Part shown: positions 12,058 through 26,420 of the stretch, in pieces | Position numbering within the stretch: the stretch's first letter is position 1 | Layout of the letters: every line of letters begins with the position of its first letter | Source of the DNA: Cochleicola gelatinilyticus | Lineage (GTDB): Bacteria; Bacteroidota; Bacteroidia; Flavobacteriales; Flavobacteriaceae | Reading direction: 5' to 3' | Assembly (NCBI RefSeq): GCF_001637325.1 | Contig: NZ_LRXL01000001.1 | Span: forward strand, 62,001 to 126,000 | Length of the DNA: 64,000 nt | Translations under genes and position numbers: made by a program | The notes under the pieces: model-generated | Told to the model about the DNA's origin: nothing | The model's database searches: none | What the model saw: only the letters and a program-made list of their open reading frames with translations

Positions 12058-12454
12058 GTGTTTATTAATGGATTGCACGTCATATTACGATTTTATTTAA
12101 CATGTTGTTAATTTGGGCAATCCCCATCGATGGCGCTCGTGCCTCACTGCTTCGATGCGTCGGGCTTTCGGCTGTATCTTTTTTGAGTTTAACAACATCG
12201 ATACCTGTAGCTTTTTACCACGTAAAAAAGGATGCCGCCTCAATCCCTATTGCGGGATTATAGAAATTTAAAATAATCTCTGGCCCCTCTTAAAGCAATA
12301 TCATTAAACAATAGTTTTCCCTAGGAACGAATTAAGAAGGTGTTCTTACATGAAGCACGAACAGCAATTCAAAACCATAAAATATCAAACCACACCTCTC
12401 AAAAAATCCCTTACGAAACCTTTAAACACATTAACCAATAAGTTTACATTTCTG
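12058..12454. other. Gene-free spacer between typA and kdsA with remnants of a dispersed repeat
   Basis: No gene was found. At about 12120-12260 the stretch contains GC-richer pieces (CGATGGCGCTCGTGCCTCAC, GATGCGTCGGGCTTTCGGC, CAATCCCTATTGCGGGATT) that resemble the element at 25850-25915 (GTGAGGGATTGCG and AAAGCCCGAC in common, partly in inverse orientation). They look like remains of an intergenic repeat; the function is unknown. Confidence 0.4.
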
Positions 12455-12479: not shown

Positions 12480-13298
12480 ATGGATCTTACTCTTATTCCT
12501 AATATAAAACACACGTCAGCTAACAACTTCTTTCTACTCGCAGGACCCTGTGCTATTGAAAGTGAAGAAATGGCACTTCGCATTGCCGAAAAAGTTGTAA
12601 GTATCACTGATGCGCTTCAAATCCCCTACGTATTTAAAGGAAGTTTTAAAAAAGCGAATCGTAGTCGAATAGACAGTTTTACAGGAATTGGCGACGAGAA
12701 GGCTTTAAAAATTCTAAAGAAAGTTTCAAAAACATTTCAGGTTCCAACGGTAACCGATATTCATGAAGTGAGCGATGCTGCTATGGCTGCCGAATATGTT
12801 GACATCCTTCAAATCCCTGCTTTTCTGGTGCGCCAAACCGACCTGGTGGTTGCAGCGGCTAACACAGGCAAAGTAGTCAATCTTAAAAAAGGACAATTTA
12901 TGAGTCCGGAGAGCATGCAACACGCTGTTAAAAAAGTAACCGATAGTGGGAATGATCAAGTAATGATCACCGATCGAGGTACCATGTTCGGGTATCAGGA
13001 TATGATTGTGGATTTCCGTGGCATACCTACCATGAAGCAGTACGCGCCTACTGTGCTTGACGTAACGCACAGTTTACAGCAGCCCAATCAAAGTGTCGGG
13101 GTGACAGGTGGACGTCCGGAAATGATCGGCACAATAGCTCGGGCAGGAATCGCCACTGGAGTTGATGGATTGTTTATAGAAACACATTTCGATCCAGCAA
13201 ATGCTAAAAGCGACGGCGCTAATATGCTCGACCTTAACCGACTTGAAAAACTGCTAACCGATCTGGTTGCAATTCGAAAAACCATCAATCAACTATAA
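12480..13298 (+). CDS. kdsA: 3-deoxy-8-phosphooctulonate synthase (KDO8P synthase)
   Basis: Condenses phosphoenolpyruvate with arabinose 5-phosphate to KDO 8-phosphate for the inner core of lipopolysaccharide; cytosolic TIM barrel, 272 residues, normal length. Motifs: LLAGPCAIESEE at 20-31, FKGSFKKANRSR (substrate loop), TDIHE, IPAFLVRQTDL, NLKKGQFMSPES, DRGTMFGYQD, DVTHSLQQPN, GGRPEM, IETHFDPANAKSDGAN. The Cys in GPCAIES together with the His of DVTH, the Glu of IETH and the Asp of KSDGAN form the metal site of the metal-dependent class (the E. coli enzyme has Asn there), so this copy is probably metal-dependent. It is transcribed alone and overlaps the convergent DUF1801 gene by 10 bp at the 3' end. 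Confidence 0.97.
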   Translation: MDLTLIPNIKHTSANNFFLLAGPCAIESEEMALRIAEKVVSITDALQIPYVFKGSFKKANRSRIDSFTGIGDEKALKILKKVSKTFQVPTVTDIHEVSDAAMAAEYVDILQIPAFLVRQTDLVVAAANTGKVVNLKKGQFMSPESMQHAVKKVTDSGNDQVMITDRGTMFGYQDMIVDFRGIPTMKQYAPTVLDVTHSLQQPNQSVGVTGGRPEMIGTIARAGIATGVDGLFIETHFDPANAKSDGANMLDLNRLEKLLTDLVAIRKTINQL

Positions 13299-13651
13299 AA
13301 TTTTTTGTCTTTTACAGAATACGCTTCAGTAAGCACTTCTCTTAAAATAGTTTCATCAATCTCTTGAAGTGTTTTGTAGCGGAGTGATTTTATACGCTTA
13401 CGGTTTTCAGAAACTAAATGCTTGGTGTGTTTGGTGAAGTGTGCTGCATTCCAGAATCCCAGATCTACATAATCTTTCGATTGGTGCAGATAACAGAACA
13501 TTTGTTTTCCGTGGAGGTAAAAACAAGGCATGCGCCATTTGTACACCAATTGTGCTTCTGGAATGGTGTCTTCGATTACTGCTTTAATATGGAGTAAGAT
13601 AGAACGAAAAGGTTCTGGTTTTTCAAGAATGGAGTTTTCAGCGGGGTTCAT
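13289..13651 (-). CDS. DUF1801 (YdhG-like) family protein
   Basis: A 120-residue soluble protein. KAVIEDTIPEAQLVYKWRMPCFYLHGKQMFCYLHQSKDYVDLGFW shows the DUF1801 core (helix, then two strands with the aromatic-rich KxxxPxFxxxG pattern); the C-terminal helix carries KHLVSENRKRIKSLRYK. The biochemical role of the family is not established. It overlaps the kdsA 3' end by 10 bp, tail to tail. It reads away from the small-RNA array, whose nearest terminator lies about 150 bp upstream of its start. Confidence 0.75.
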   Translation of the reverse strand: MNPAENSILEKPEPFRSILLHIKAVIEDTIPEAQLVYKWRMPCFYLHGKQMFCYLHQSKDYVDLGFWNAAHFTKHTKHLVSENRKRIKSLRYKTLQEIDETILREVLTEAYSVKDKKFYS

Positions 13652-13802
13652 AGCTTCTTAATTAAACCTATCCTTTTAAAGATTTTCTAAAAAGATATAA
13701 TTAAAAAACCCTCTCGAAGAATATAAGACAGGGTTCTTATGGCTAATCAAATATACGCTATTAAGGAGAGTTTATAAAAATCAGTAAAAACTTATTATAT
13801 GT

Positions 13803-13867
13803 AAAAAGCTATCCTCAAAGAGAATAGCTTTTACATAGTGCTTTCATTAACTCCCCAATTAATTAAG
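13803..13867 (-). ncRNA. Putative small RNA, unit 1 of a three-gene tandem family
   Basis: On the minus strand a -7-like CATCTTTG (plus 13873-13880) is followed by the core GCTTAATTAATTGGGGAG, then GTTAATGAAAGCAC, then a 13-bp hairpin (AAAAGCTATTCTC, loop TTT, GAGGATAGCTTTT, one G-T pair) ending in a T run. The implied transcript is about 65 nt. No open frame fits. The core is identical to that of unit 3 and nearly so to unit 2, while the hairpins differ in sequence, which is the pattern of paralogous sRNA genes with a conserved seed. Not recognised as a known family. Confidence 0.6.
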
Positions 13868-13905
13868 CTATACAAAGATGCATAATAGTTAAGGGTGTTT
13901 CAAGA

Positions 13906-13943
13906 GGTTATTCCCTAAGTTTTAATAGGTTTTTCCCCTATTA
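13906..13943 (-). promoter_or_regulatory. Direct-repeat operator of small-RNA unit 1
   Basis: On the minus strand AGGGGAAAAACC and AGGGAATAACC are two copies of one box, 22 bp apart (two helical turns). The promoter-proximal edge is 26 bp upstream of the -7 box. This geometry equals that of units 2 and 3 and resembles sites of LytTR-type response regulators (paired 9-bp direct repeats with a 21-22 bp period). Confidence 0.55.
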
Positions 13944-14013
13944 AAACTCGGATAATGTCTTTAATGAAAATTTAGAAAAGAATTAAAAGCAACGAAACTT
14001 ACCCCCTAAAACA

Positions 14014-14082
14014 TGTAAAAGGCTACCCTACGATGAGTGCAACCTTTATACACTGCTTATATTAACTCCCCAGTCAATTAAG
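14014..14082 (-). ncRNA. Putative small RNA, unit 2 of the tandem family
   Basis: The minus strand shows a -7-like TATATTAT (plus 14088-14095), the core GCTTAATTGACTGGGGAG (16 of 18 identical to units 1 and 3), GTTAATATAAGCAG, then a 9-bp hairpin (AAAGGTTGC / GGTAGCCTTT side) with a short TTTT tail. It is the most diverged unit and has the weakest terminator. The expected transcript is about 69 nt. Confidence 0.52.
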
Positions 14083-14118
14083 CACTAATAATATACGAAA
14101 TTACAAGGAGTAAATCAA

Positions 14119-14154
14119 CAGGGAAAAACCCCTGTTTTAAATAGGGTTTTTCCT
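14119..14154 (-). promoter_or_regulatory. Direct-repeat/palindromic operator of small-RNA unit 2
   Basis: On the minus strand CAGGAAAAACCC is followed 23 bp later by GGGGTTTTTCCC, so the second box is inverted and the whole region is close to a palindrome of CAGG-A5-CCC arms. The proximal edge is 24 bp from the -7 box of unit 2. Confidence 0.52.
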
Positions 14155-14208
14155 GTACACTCCAGTTGAACATTTTATTGTGCAATTTTAAGATGTCATT
14201 TAAAACGA

Positions 14209-14279
14209 TAAAAAAAAGACCATTCATTTCTGAACAGTCTTTTCATATTTGCTTTTATTAACTCCCCAATTAATTAAGC
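14209..14279 (-). ncRNA. Putative small RNA, unit 3 of the tandem family
   Basis: The minus strand has a -7-like CATCTTTG (plus 14284-14291), the core GCTTAATTAATTGGGGAG, GTTAATAAAAGCAA, then a fully paired 13-bp hairpin (AAAAGACTGTTCA, GAAA tetraloop, TGAATGGTCTTTT) and eight T. This is the best terminator of the three and fixes the orientation of the family, since the plus strand lacks the T run. The expected transcript is about 70 nt. Confidence 0.65.
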
Positions 14280-14314
14280 TATACAAAGATGCAATGAAAG
14301 TGGTTTGGAATCAA

Positions 14315-14352
14315 GGGGGTTTTGCCTATTTCTAAAAAGGGGTTTTTCCTAT
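14315..14352 (-). promoter_or_regulatory. Direct-repeat operator of small-RNA unit 3
   Basis: The minus strand carries TAGGAAAAACCCC and TAGGCAAAACCCC, the same box twice, 23 bp apart, proximal edge 24 bp upstream of the -7 box. It is the clearest direct repeat of the three units. The stretch 14353-14505 beyond it is AT-rich with nothing else recognised. Confidence 0.55.
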
Positions 14353-14505
14353 TTACGTGTTTCAATAACACTATCTTATTTAGTATAAGAAACATACCCC
14401 AAAAAAAAGCGCTATAGTGTATTAACTCTTTTTAAACGTACGTACAAAATAACTCCCTAATAACTAATTTAAAAAAACGCTTTGCAGTTTCAGAAAAAAG
14501 ATTTT

Positions 14506-14527
14506 ACTTTGTAATTCAAAGTACTTT
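14506..14527 (+). promoter_or_regulatory. Palindromic operator, copy 1
   Basis: ACTTTGTAATTCAAAGT (near-perfect palindrome) followed by ACTTTA, just before the ATG at 14532. The same block is found at 15457 before creD. It is probably the binding site of the winged-helix regulator encoded at 15143, repressing both units. Confidence 0.6.
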
Positions 14528-14531
14528 ATTT

Positions 14532-16863: not shown

Positions 16864-17634
16864 ATGAAAACACTTCTTATTAAAAGACTTAGAACTAAAA
16901 TAAGCCACTCCCTACAAATAGCATTACTGATTATAGAATGGATGGCAGTACAAATACAGTTGTATTGGAGAACGCACTATACCTCGAAACAAAAACACCG
17001 ATTAGGATATTTCGCCCTTGCCGTAATTTGGTTGTCTAAAATGGGATTGTATGTGTTGTTAATTTCAAAACTTGTCATTACTCAAACTGCCGTGCATGAG
17101 ACATTTAATGATATTGATAGTATCCCAGAAAATAAGGTAGGCGTGCTGCTGGGCACGGGAAAATACCTAAAATCGGGCACCATTAGCAAATATTACACAC
17201 ATCGTATCGAAGCTGCGGTAGCTTTATTTAAAGCGGGGAAGATAAAAGTAATTTTAGTAAGTGGGGATCATGGAGTGGCAGGCTATAATGAACCTCAATA
17301 TTTTAAAGAAGATCTTATGCGCCTTGGCATTCCCGAAAATAAGATTGTGTTAGATTATGCGGGTTTCCGCACCTTAGACTCGGTGGTTCGCGCTAAAAAA
17401 GTTTTTGGATTAAAAAAATATACCATTATCTCTCAAAAATGGCACAACCAACGCGCTATCTATTTGGCTAAGAATTACGGATTGGAGGTAATTGGTTATA
17501 ATTCTAAAGATGTAAATGGTGTATTCCCCTTAACTATTAATTCCAGAGAATATGCTGCCAGAACCAAAGCCATATTAGACATACTTTTTCATAAAAAACC
17601 AAAATTCTTAGGTTCTAAAATCGAAATATTATGA
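16864..17634 (+). CDS. SanA/YdcF-like DUF218 envelope protein
   Basis: A 256-residue protein with an N-terminal membrane region (helix about residues 48-75) and a DUF218 domain: VGVLLGTGKYLKSGTISKYY, RIEAAVALFKAGKIKVILVSGDHG, GIPENKIVLDYAGFRTLDSV, ISQKWHNQRAIYLAKNYGL. SanA of E. coli supports the envelope barrier to vancomycin at high temperature. Compared with SanA it carries some 50 extra N-terminal residues with an amphipathic stretch. The next gene overlaps its stop by 4 bp (ATGA), so a three-gene operon continues downstream. Confidence 0.85.
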   Translation: MKTLLIKRLRTKISHSLQIALLIIEWMAVQIQLYWRTHYTSKQKHRLGYFALAVIWLSKMGLYVLLISKLVITQTAVHETFNDIDSIPENKVGVLLGTGKYLKSGTISKYYTHRIEAAVALFKAGKIKVILVSGDHGVAGYNEPQYFKEDLMRLGIPENKIVLDYAGFRTLDSVVRAKKVFGLKKYTIISQKWHNQRAIYLAKNYGLEVIGYNSKDVNGVFPLTINSREYAARTKAILDILFHKKPKFLGSKIEIL

Positions 17635-20942: not shown

Positions 20943-23180
20943 TTGAAATTAATTGCCCCTCTTATCCTAGCGATGCTATTTTTTGGCACGTCCTATTGTC
21001 AGACCTCATCGGATGGTCAAAAAGATATTCCACACGCTACAGCACTAAAAATTAAAATAGATCTCGTCGACTCTTTAGTGCGATATACAAGAAATCAGTT
21101 TTATAAAAACAATTTTGATATTGTTATAGAAACTGGAAACAAAACCCGAAAATTAGCTCGAGAGATAAAAGATACGGCGTCTATTTCTGCGCTTTCTAGT
21201 CTTATTGGAAACTCCTATTTGCAAATTAAAGACACTATTGAAGCAAAAAAGGTGTTTTCTGATGCTATTTTAGAAGCTGAGCAACTTAAAGACTCTTCTA
21301 GTATGTTAACAGCTCGTATCGATCTAGGAAATTTTTATGGTTCTCAAGAAAAAGGTGATTATGCTATCCGCTTGTATAAAGAAGCTATACCCTTAGCAAA
21401 GAAAATTGGTTCTAACACGCGATTATTTATTTTAAATTATAATATAGCTGAAATCAGTCTTGGACAAAAAGATATATCAAAGGCAGAATATTATGTAAAT
21501 GAAACTAATAAATTCCTCAATGATTCTATGAACAACGTCTATAAAGCCGTTGCTAAAATTAATAATGGAAAACTACACTTTTTAAAAAAAAATCCAGCTA
21601 TTGCCATTATAGATCTAAAAGAAGGTATTGAGCTAGCAGAATTAACCGGCTACACAGATCCACTTATCGATGGGTATGAATTCTATGCACAATCGTTATC
21701 CATGTTAGGTGATTATAAAGCTGCCTATTTGCTTTCTCAAAAAATAGATACCTTAAAAATTGAAAAATATAAAACAGATAAAATTGAAGCAATTGAGTCT
21801 GTTACTGCACAATATAAGCTCAATCAATACAAACAAGAATTAAAAGCAAAAACACTTCAAAATATATATAATAAGCAAACGGCTAAAAAAGAAACTACCA
21901 TTCAATGGATAAAAATTGCTAGCGGAATTCTTCTTATGTTTTCTATCATTATTTATATATCCTACCTAAAGAGAAAAAAATTAGTGGTAAGCCTTATCGA
22001 TAAAAACAAACAATATCTTAAGGCAAAAGAAAAGAGTGAAGAGTATGCTAAAGCAAAAAACATATTGTTCTCAAACATTACACACGAACTTCGCACCCCT
22101 ATGTATGGTATTATTGGGATTTCTTCACTTTTATTGAATGATAAGAAGTTGGAACACCACCAAGATAGTATTCGCTCATTAAAGTTTTCCGCAAATTATC
22201 TCCTTTCATTAGTCAATAACGTATTACAGTTAACTAAAATTGATGCAACAAAAAAAAATGAATTGTTTAAGCATGAATTTAATTTAAGACTACTTGTCGA
22301 GAATGTAGTTAAGTCATCTCAATTTATTAATAAGGAGCATCCAAATAAATACATTATCACAATTGACGATGCTGTACCAACGAATCTCTTAGGAGATGAC
22401 CTAAAACTCTCTCAAATTCTCATTAACTTAATTGGAAACGCTTCCAAATTTACAAATAATGGAACAGTCTCCATTACAGTAAAAAATGTTTCTAGTATTC
22501 CTTTAGAAACTTGTTTAGCATTTACCATTACCGATACCGGTATTGGAATTTCTAAAGAGAAACAGGAACATATTTTTAATGAATTTTCACAATCTTATAC
22601 TAACAGCAATTATCAAGGTAGTGGCCTAGGACTTCCTATTGTTAAAAAATTATTAGAGTTACACAATACCGATATTCATTTAAAAAGTGAGGTGAATAAG
22701 GGGACTACGGTTTCCTTTAAAATTAATTATGAAGCTGCAACTCCCATCCGCACCATTAAAAAGGAAAATAAAATAGATATCTCTAAAAAATTTCAAGGAC
22801 TTACTATTCTAGTGGTTGATGACAACAAAATTAATCAGATTGTTACGAAAAGAACCCTTGAATTGTATGGTACTAATGTTATTGTAGCTGGTAGCGGTAA
22901 AGAGGGGATTGAAGTTGCTAAAAAAGAAAAGCTTGATTTAATTCTCATGGATATTAATATGCCAGAAATGAATGGCTTTGAAGCCACCGCTCATATTAAA
23001 GCGTTTCAGCCAGCATTACCCATTATTGCACTTACTGCAGTCGAACTAGAAAAAATGACAGAAGATGATGCGTTCAACTTATTAGACGACACTATTATAA
23101 AACCATATGATAATCAAGAATTCATTACTACAATCTCTAGTCATGTTTTCAAGGAACAGGAAATTGTTGTTACTATATAA
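20943..23180 (+). CDS. TPR-containing hybrid histidine kinase with receiver domain
   Basis: A 745-residue sensor: signal peptide (about 1-20), periplasmic helical repeats of the TPR kind (about 30-300, with YAIRLYKEAIPLAKKIG and similar), membrane helix about 325-345, HisKA with FSNITHELRTP (His near 381), HATPase with LIGNASKFTNNG, TDTGIGIS and GSGLGLPIV, and a receiver (about 619-735) with VVDDNKIN and phosphoacceptor Asp near 669 in LMDINMPEMNGF. It uses a TTG start giving a proper signal peptide. No response regulator gene is adjacent, so output is by phosphorelay to a distant partner. This kinase class in Flavobacteria often feeds LuxR/LytTR regulators; whether it touches the small-RNA operators at 14 kb is open. 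Confidence 0.9.
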   Translation: MKLIAPLILAMLFFGTSYCQTSSDGQKDIPHATALKIKIDLVDSLVRYTRNQFYKNNFDIVIETGNKTRKLAREIKDTASISALSSLIGNSYLQIKDTIEAKKVFSDAILEAEQLKDSSSMLTARIDLGNFYGSQEKGDYAIRLYKEAIPLAKKIGSNTRLFILNYNIAEISLGQKDISKAEYYVNETNKFLNDSMNNVYKAVAKINNGKLHFLKKNPAIAIIDLKEGIELAELTGYTDPLIDGYEFYAQSLSMLGDYKAAYLLSQKIDTLKIEKYKTDKIEAIESVTAQYKLNQYKQELKAKTLQNIYNKQTAKKETTIQWIKIASGILLMFSIIIYISYLKRKKLVVSLIDKNKQYLKAKEKSEEYAKAKNILFSNITHELRTPMYGIIGISSLLLNDKKLEHHQDSIRSLKFSANYLLSLVNNVLQLTKIDATKKNELFKHEFNLRLLVENVVKSSQFINKEHPNKYIITIDDAVPTNLLGDDLKLSQILINLIGNASKFTNNGTVSITVKNVSSIPLETCLAFTITDTGIGISKEKQEHIFNEFSQSYTNSNYQGSGLGLPIVKKLLELHNTDIHLKSEVNKGTTVSFKINYEAATPIRTIKKENKIDISKKFQGLTILVVDDNKINQIVTKRTLELYGTNVIVAGSGKEGIEVAKKEKLDLILMDINMPEMNGFEATAHIKAFQPALPIIALTAVELEKMTEDDAFNLLDDTIIKPYDNQEFITTISSHVFKEQEIVVTI

Positions 23181-25987: not shown

Positions 25988-26384
25988 GGGGCCGACTGGT
26001 TTTGACAGCGGGTCTAATGGTATTGTAAGCATGTCGAGCGCTGGGAAACAGCTCGTAAATCTCATTTTTCACACTTTTTAAACGGCGAGAATAACTACGC
26101 CCTAGCAGCATAATCTGAATTATAGTAAGATATGCCTCGGCCCGTAAGACGGGCATGCAGGAAGTCACTCAAACACCTTGGTTTACGGTTTTTGATCTAG
26201 TGGCTTCGTAAAAGTAAACCTAGCTTGTGTAGGACTTTGATACACTTGCGAAACTCAAATTGAAGTTAAGGAATGCGTTGGTAGTTTTCGACCGGCAAGT
26301 TCACGAAAATCTAAATGAAAACTACACATGTAGAAAGCAGTAACATTGCTTGTTTGGACGAGGGTTCGAATCCCTCCGGCTCCA
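25988..26384 (+). ncRNA. ssrA: Transfer-messenger RNA (tmRNA)
   Basis: Rescues stalled ribosomes and tags the released protein. The 5' end GGGGCCGACTGGTTTTGACA and the 3' end GAGGGTTCGAATCCCTCCGG then CTCCA pair as the tRNA-like acceptor (GGGGCCG with CGGCTCC, one G-U). The T arm GGTTCGAATCC is present. The tag frame GGC GAG AAT AAC TAC GCC CTA GCA GCA TAA at 26084-26113 encodes GENNYALAA and ends in the ALAA degron. The genomic sequence after the discriminator A is CG, not CCA, so the CCA end is probably added by nucleotidyltransferase. A hairpin terminator follows. Confidence 0.97.
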
Positions 26385-26420
26385 CGATCACTCACAACTA
26401 CGTTGTGGATGAAAACTATA

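Follow-up and report, generated by a model that had tools for sequence, protein, structure and literature searches.

The window, the 64 kb stretch of DNA analysed here, contains an ORF-free gap of 880 bases (13652-14531) between the ORF of a DUF1801 protein and the first ORF on the creD side, as defined by the ORF list (Table 1). The names of neighbouring genes (DUF1801, creD, kdsA and typA) are those of an earlier sequence-only reading of this DNA or were given by eye, unless Pfam is cited. In agreement with that reading, which had described a gene-free stretch of this length and three minus-strand units of about 200 bp within it, the gap holds three tandem units, all on the minus strand and spaced by 196 and 215 bp. 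From 5′ to 3′, each unit consists of two dyads of approximate form AGGnAAAAnCCY, a TTG, 20 bases, a −7 box, four bases and a G that opens GCUUAAUU. The 18-mer GCTTAATTAATTGGGGAG, whose place after a −7-like box and whose conservation at 16 to 18 positions had been noted before, is exact in two units and matches at 16 of 18 positions in the middle unit, with TTAAT directly after it in each. A terminator hairpin with a T run closes every unit, and the hairpin sequence is different in all three, again as first described. When the 3.39 Mb genome was searched with a 23-base core pattern at up to three mismatches, it matched at the three array units only (control, 0). The housekeeping promoter box of F. 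psychrophilum has been placed at −12 to −5 (PMC9723704), a position that would put the RNA start of each unit exactly at the GCUUAAUU G. From the T runs, the predicted RNAs are 70, 67-76 and 66 nt long, which supports the earlier proposal of RNA genes of about 65-75 nt with a common core and individual terminators. The locus therefore reads as three putative paralogous genes for small regulatory RNAs arranged in tandem, and the assignment of the units as RNA genes is well supported.

Table 1. Predicted elements of the array, its flanking ORFs and the candidate regulator operons (window positions, except for the last two rows)
Feature	Position	Strand	Details
DUF1801 ORF	13289-13651	minus	by eye
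Unit C small RNA, ~66 nt, predicted	13803..13868	minus	predicted start G 13868; T run 13807-13803
Unit C 5′ hairpin	13840..13868	minus	GGGG loop 13853-13856
Unit C promoter	−7 box 13880-13873; TTG 13903-13901	minus	−7 box CATCTTTG
Unit C operator, predicted	13906..13939	minus	two dyads, 13939-13928 and 13916-13906
Unit B small RNA, ~67-76 nt, predicted	14008..14083	minus	predicted start G 14083; T runs 14020-14017, 14011-14008
Unit B 5′ hairpin	14055..14083	minus	GGGG loop 14068-14071; inner helix AUUGACU/AGUUAAU
Unit B promoter	−7 box 14095-14088; TTG 14118-14116	minus	−7 box TATATTAT
Unit B operator, predicted	14121..14154	minus	two dyads, 14154-14144 and 14133-14121
Unit A small RNA, ~70 nt, predicted	14210..14279	minus	predicted start G 14279; T run ends 14210
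Unit A 5′ hairpin	14251..14279	minus	GGGG loop 14264-14267; inner helix AUUAAUU/AGUUAAU; outer helix GCUU/AAGC
Unit A promoter	−7 box 14291-14284; TTG 14314-14312	minus	−7 box CATCTTTG
Unit A operator, predicted	14316..14350	minus	two AGGnAAAACCCC dyads, 14350-14339 and 14327-14316
Divergent ORF, creD side	starts 14532	plus	by eye
Own-genome operon L292	G000:C36:438200-442600		HisKA_3 kinase and GerE regulator, one strict dyad
Own-genome operon L293	G000:C36:150000-155000		HisKA_3 kinase and GerE regulator, one strict dyad

Folding predictions give each RNA a 5′-terminal hairpin with an inner and an outer helix, in which only GGGG is unpaired, followed by the unit-specific terminator hairpin. 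The near-invariant element UUAAYUGGGGAGUU lies within this 5′ hairpin, with its GGGG in the loop. In the inner helix of unit B, C-G and G-U pairs replace the U-G and A-U pairs of units A and C. Six units, the three of the window and three from two other genera, fold better than their shuffles (z from −3.5 to −5.8), and one shuffle in 200 equalled one of the six units. For the window, z is −5.8 in unit A and −5.0 in unit C, with folds begun 1 nt further upstream, and −4.0 in unit B, with the fold begun 2 nt further upstream. This fold revises part of the sequence-only reading, which had proposed paralogous RNAs with a common seed and an exposed GGGGAG. The paralogous genes and their common core stand, but the core is predicted to form a hairpin rather than an open seed, and GGGGAG would be partly exposed at most.

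A covariance model (R1) built from the three window units and two units of another genus gave 34 matches in 19 of 397 Flavobacteriaceae genomes and 11 of 237 genera, so that the covariance search suggested by the earlier reading does recover a family. Unit A scores 81.1 bits with R1 at 14244-14315 as a member of the model's own training set, and the R1 family search missed genome G012, which carries a core copy. In addition, a genome contig collection, from which the window's own genome was possibly left out, was scanned for exact copies of the 18-base core and gave 64 stretches. Forty of these are matched by the model over its full length (best E no higher than 6e-5), long-leader forms account for six more, identified by eye (L115, L124, L135, L145, L168 and L171), and 18 are coding-like or unrelated sequence, again by eye. 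The named genera among the 46 RNA-bearing stretches are Aequorivita, Ulvibacter, Altibacter, Marixanthomonas, Luteirhabdus, Thermobacterium and Aureisphaera. Across 20 array regions, a kdsA-type ORF neighbours the array in 17, a typA-type ORF in 16 and a creD-type ORF in 14; two to four copies are present in 13 regions, single-copy members also occur, and L075 and L078 carry a second copy 2.5-3 kb away. A second model, R2, found the RNA in 2 of 395 genomes in each of an order and a phylum sample, all listed rows being the same two Flavobacteriaceae genomes, in overlapping samples and with sensitivity limited by the scoring of only 12 candidates per genome. A group of marine Flavobacteriaceae has thus kept the predicted RNA family, mostly in the same gene neighbourhood, and the array appears to be an old locus passed down vertically within that one group.

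Over the array, no Rfam 15 family reaches its gathering score, in line with the earlier reader's knowing no described family of this form, and the matches of Rfam in the window (a tmRNA and a Flavo-1 RNA) lie elsewhere. Permissive Rfam scans over the array gave sub-threshold scores only (10-18 matches), and no description of the family was recognised in open PMC text. The exact 18-base core also occurs, on the RNA's strand, in an apparent conserved coding motif, RINWGVN (L118, L127, L138, L139 and L163), which is probably a codon coincidence. The long-leader forms, found in relatives of Altibacter and Aureisphaera, have extra leader sequence and an outer stem AAUCG/CGAUU that encloses the same core. 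Such variants (L071:8951, L080:9060, L115, L124 and L171) number one in each array of the Altibacter relatives, stand alone in genomes of the Aureisphaera type and may represent a separate paralogue whose role differs.

Comparison of the units suggests how the RNA has been selected. Positions TTAAYTGGGGAGTT are nearly invariant over 107 units (one of them false), a degree of invariance that is somewhat overstated, as the exact-core scan supplied part of the unit set and biased it to the consensus core. The inner helix is conserved in sequence and not in pairing alone, with none of its seven pairs changed on both sides. The outer helix varies yet tends to remain paired, appearing in the folds as GCUU/AAGC, ACUUAU/AUAAGU, GCA/UGC, CACUA/UAGUG and AAUCG/CGAUU. 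Exchanging the 3′ flanks between units moved the mean fold energy of 57 representatives from −6.67 to −5.10 (sd 0.20), a mean cost of 1.6 kcal/mol or about 8 sd of the exchanged means, and none of 200 exchanges was as low as the real units. In pair counts on an alignment that was fitted to the model's own structure, all four outer pairs change on both sides, in 87 cells (shuffle mean, 28.3; best slid version, 19). The cells are paired in 92.5% of cases against 84.7 in shuffles and at most 51.5 in slid versions, and the covariation score is 0.252 against 0.121 and at most 0.047, respectively. In the same alignment, the number of pairs with any double change is not above that of shuffles (4 vs 4.6) and the number of further pair types barely differs (17 vs 15.3), both measures being unremarkable because the inner helix hardly varies. 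One false match in alignment A3 (L162:6786) was kept in the invariance, flank-exchange and pair-count analyses, and was removed before the dyad positions, promoters and terminators of 106 units were counted. In these counts a terminator is present in 100 of 106 units (shuffles, 7.5), so that a missing terminator hairpin, which the earlier reading had named as evidence against RNA genes if seen in core copies of other genomes, is rare among the units. The covarying outer helix, the near-invariant core and the terminators together indicate that selection acts at the RNA level, and the hardly varying, mostly A-U inner helix with its G loop indicates that sequence matters beyond shape.

These observations also bear on readings in which the RNA is incidental. 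The DUF1801 ORF follows the last unit after 151 bp and shares its strand, as might be expected of a leader or attenuator of the downstream gene. However, the downstream gene differs among genomes, a DUF1801-type ORF does not adjoin the array in L064, L074 and others, and a terminator ends nearly every unit. A hidden small ORF is opposed by the lack of a frame common to the window units, since the ATG after the core of unit A runs into the terminator and that of unit C is directly followed by TAA; a mobile repeat is opposed by the finding that the 3.39 Mb genome holds no extra copies when up to three mismatches are allowed. We regard this group of explanations as most improbable. The dense clustering of operator dyads in one place could alternatively mean that the array serves a regulator chiefly as a DNA decoy, with transcripts as by-products. 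This is very improbable given the signs of RNA-level selection listed above and the long-leader variants, which keep the hairpin at a different promoter distance.

Each unit is preceded by a predicted Bacteroidota promoter composed of TTG, 20 nt and an nATnTTTG-like box. A strict form of this promoter is found in 90 of 106 units (shuffles, 3.7), and a looser pattern, run without a control, in 105. Within 140 bases upstream, a dyad occurs in 99 of 106 units (shuffles, 5.3); at the expected places both dyads are present in 74 units and at least one in 96. In 42 units the dyad frame reads GGnAAAAnCC followed, 22-23 bases on, by rGGnWWWWnCC, which abuts the −33 TTG. The dyad centres of the window units fall at about −43 and −66 relative to the predicted start, which are the usual positions for activators. 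Strict double dyads in the 64 kb window are found at the three units only, and further strict-pattern single dyads lie at 17157, 38777, 55289 and 60361. When the dyad pattern with TTG was searched at up to three mismatches, the own genome gave eight matches (control, 0), six of them within the array, and six other RNA-bearing genomes gave 10-31 matches against 1-7 in controls, with weak enrichment in several (for example, 12 vs 7). Genome G069, which has no RNA match in the R1 search and served as an unplanned control, had five dyad sites against four in its control, and a stricter dyad pattern recovered only one unit in the own genome. An initial reading of the 22-bp repeats as LytTR binding sites was dropped, as the dyads were found upstream of NarL-type operons.

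The operon reached through these dyad sites starts with the gene of a small protein that matches no Pfam family; it also encodes a membrane protein, a HisKA_3 kinase and a response regulator that combines a receiver with a GerE domain. A search with the small protein gave 17 matches to the operon family; each of the 10 RNA-bearing genomes tested has at least one, and seven, the own genome among them, have two. A kinase H-box lies downstream of all 17 matches; kinase, receiver and GerE-like motifs are present in 12 longer stretches that span all 10 genomes, and Pfam confirmed the domains in six operons, including the own genome. A strict dyad occurs in the 415 bases before the match in all 17 operons, 13 of which were found without the motif and are counted apart from the four found through it. 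The background is 17 of 426 same-length windows and 10 of 324 A+T-rich windows. Double dyads precede nine of the 17 operons (five of the 13 motif-independent ones) against a background of five in 426; orthologous operons and units are non-independent in all of these counts. In the own-genome operon the second dyad is imperfect. Because the dyad precedes the HisKA_3 operon in every RNA-bearing genome tested, we infer, with good support from these comparisons, that its NarL/FixJ-type regulator activates the units through the two AGGnAAAAnCCY dyads at about −43 and −66. There is good reason to think, in turn, that the two-component system drives the RNAs. The core hairpin, the operator dyads and this candidate two-component system all go beyond the sequence-only reading.

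Another NarL/LuxR-type or unrelated factor could instead bind the dyads, with the kinase operon as only a further target, an alternative that is independent of how the RNAs function. The presence of two operon-family matches in seven of the 10 genomes, all with a dyad, leaves room for such a factor, as do dyads near other genes, some of them secreted-looking. Autoregulation, on the other hand, is an established and common explanation for an operator shared by the operons of one two-component family, and the examined operons encode GerE-type regulators. A strong match to the first gene, the small protein (E below 1e-25), is also found in 11 of 11 RNA-bearing genomes against 0 of 38 other relatives searched, a comparison that is confounded by ancestry and in which RNA absence rests on searches that missed the RNA of G012. 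Ten of these 38 relatives have weaker small-protein matches, at 12 places, with a dyad at three. On balance, we consider a different regulator unlikely and retain the HisKA_3/NarL system as the candidate.

A gene for Pvc16_N, a contractile injection system domain, is divergent from the main operon in the own genome (L292) and in L262 according to Pfam, and ORFs with a Pvc16_N-type N-terminal motif are likewise divergent from the operon in L269, L297 and L298. The HisKA_3/NarL system is thus a candidate regulator of flavobacterial contractile injection systems. Dyads were observed between the Pvc16_N-type gene and the HisKA_3/NarL operon in L262, L292, L269, L297 and L298. Elsewhere, dyads lie beside related-looking small secreted proteins in two genera (DAQLFDNDWYL in L266 of G123 and DPQLFENEWYL in L270 of G027), and in L263 they are close to a protein that has a PG_binding_1 domain and, below the cut-off, matches CHAP. 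Within the window, an ORF at 20943-23180 on the plus strand resembles, by eye, a TPR hybrid histidine kinase with a receiver, and related ORFs occur in six of the 20 array regions, this one included. It was set aside as a direct regulator, as no DNA-binding domain was seen by eye.

The proposed mechanism begins with a kinase that would sense a signal and phosphorylate the regulator, which would bind the two dyads and recruit RNA polymerase to all copies together. The copies would jointly give a pulse of short structured RNAs, with separate copies acting as a dosage amplifier. The G-rich hairpin, whose inner stem is A-U rich, may then open and pair with C-rich sites of target mRNAs, much as LhrC or the csRNAs do with other sequences; this step is weakly supported, and trans-action by base pairing is something we infer. 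The search for conserved targets used one 10-base complement, TAACTCCCCA, in 10 genomes. It occurs at 72 places, 20 of them in arrays and 52 elsewhere, the reversed control giving 31. The 52 sites outside arrays comprise 32 antisense within ORFs, six sense and 14 outside ORFs; six of the last group are found 24-53 nt ahead of an ORF start, and the genes concerned are not related. The only related pair among the 52 is formed by two repeat-rich proteins, L230 and L251. The search, for which the earlier reading had advised target prediction with the GGGGAG core, yielded no recurrent or conserved target among the 52 sites inspected in these 10 genomes. Similarly, only one of 16 start regions of regulator and injection-system mRNAs had a feedback site below p = 0.05 (p = 0.015; dinucleotide shuffles). 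The predicted core is mostly paired, which is unusual for a seed and counts against the pairing reading. Neither Hfq nor CsrA was matched in any of the 10 genomes, and action based on either protein was rejected.

The same evidence raises the question of whether the hairpin with its GGGG loop is a binding site through which the copies sequester an RNA-binding protein. RsmY, RsmZ and CsrB, which titrate CsrA, present GG-containing hairpin loops in regulator-driven multicopy RNAs. A stem-borne GGGG loop is a plausible protein site, the inner helix is kept in sequence and not merely in pairing, and the TAACTCCCCA search found no conserved mRNA target in the 10 genomes. With CsrA unmatched, however, the partner would have to be another protein, and each flavobacterial RNA carries a single core motif whereas CsrB-type RNAs carry many. 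Aequorivita units with the core ATTTAATTGGGGAGTTTT furthermore retain the 5′ UU although its pairing partners became UU, which fits a linear motif and not a helix. We consider titration of a protein rather unlikely, and pairing with C-rich mRNA sites about twice as probable as a protein partner. The whole reading, in which a two-component system drives paralogous small RNAs from a dosage array and their G-rich hairpins pair with C-rich mRNA, has in our judgement an even chance of being correct.

Multicopy small RNAs of similar logic are known from other bacteria. LhrC1-5 of Listeria are multicopy sRNAs described as induced through the two-component system LisRK (PMC4132741, PMC5880928). The flavobacterial units are likewise multicopy, and the common dyad suggests that two-component control may also apply to them. 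LhrC directs C-rich (UCCC/CU-rich) motifs against ribosome sites, whereas UUAAYUGGGGAGUU offers a G-rich loop in place of UCCC, in a different phylum and with Hfq matched in 0 of 10 genomes. Bacteroidota are said to make little use of Shine-Dalgarno sites. The csRNAs of Streptococcus, which belong to the CiaRH system, are reported to be five small RNAs of high similarity controlled by a single response regulator (PMC4507080). No sequence relation to them was seen in the Rfam scan, as far as csRNA models are included there. CiaR is of the OmpR type, unlike the NarL/FixJ-type candidate proposed here. Qrr1-5 of Vibrio are paralogous RNAs with an identical core and a dosage logic, features that the present array shares, but they depend on sigma54 and Hfq, and the flavobacterial units have a housekeeping-type promoter and no Hfq match in the 10 genomes. 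The family may work like multicopy LhrC, csRNA and Qrr, and yet it fails the tested defining features of LhrC and Qrr.

The nearest system in the same phylum is FopS of Bacteroides thetaiotaomicron, described as 14 paralogues of about 65-70 nt with a conserved 5′ region and a terminator (PMC11697453). Its seed is reported to be single-stranded at the 5′ end, and its structure was deposited in Rfam (PMC11697453). Phylum, paralogy, similar length and the presence of a terminator are common to both. The flavobacterial RNAs differ in a 5′ end predicted as a GGGG hairpin, in their operator dyads and in their tandem array, an arrangement that the main text on FopS does not mention. FopS was not among the Rfam 15 scan matches over the array, as far as the copy used includes its model. 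Kinship to GibS (RF04182) was rejected, as scores of 16-20 bits (16.4-20.2) stand against a cut-off of 115 and the alignment falls mostly at the terminator. Within the family Flavobacteriaceae, the Rfp RNAs of F. psychrophilum come from transcriptomics, and Rfp18 is reported to pair via a third stem-loop (PMC9723704), in contrast to the G-loop hairpin at the 5′ end here. The words 'hairpin', 'seed' and 'lyttr' are absent from the main text of that paper, and its relevant passages contain no tandem family (PMC9723704).

In our judgement, little work has been done on regulatory RNA in Flavobacteriaceae; within the phylum, the sRNAs of Bacteroides have been studied best. The array adds a compact RNA family with predicted ends, a candidate regulator and an operon context in Ulvibacter litoralis, Altibacter lentus and several Aequorivita. 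It is tempting to speculate that one phospho-regulator uses paired AGG..CC dyads to switch on the G-loop RNAs together with its own operon and the divergent operon of the injection system, and that these RNAs reset a post-transcriptional programme by loop pairing or by sequestering a Bacteroidota RNA-binding protein, without Hfq or CsrA. We hold this broader model tentatively, as plausible but falling somewhat short of an even chance. The family makes testable how small RNAs work without Hfq, how flavobacterial injection systems are controlled and what a G-rich loop is looking for in a phylum that relies little on Shine-Dalgarno initiation. Two further RNAs were found in the window: a Flavo-1 RNA (RF01705) near the array, between the typA- and kdsA-type ORFs (12154-12263, minus strand; 44.2 bits, cut-off 42), and a tmRNA at 25988-26387 on the plus strand, with the tag GENNYALAA.
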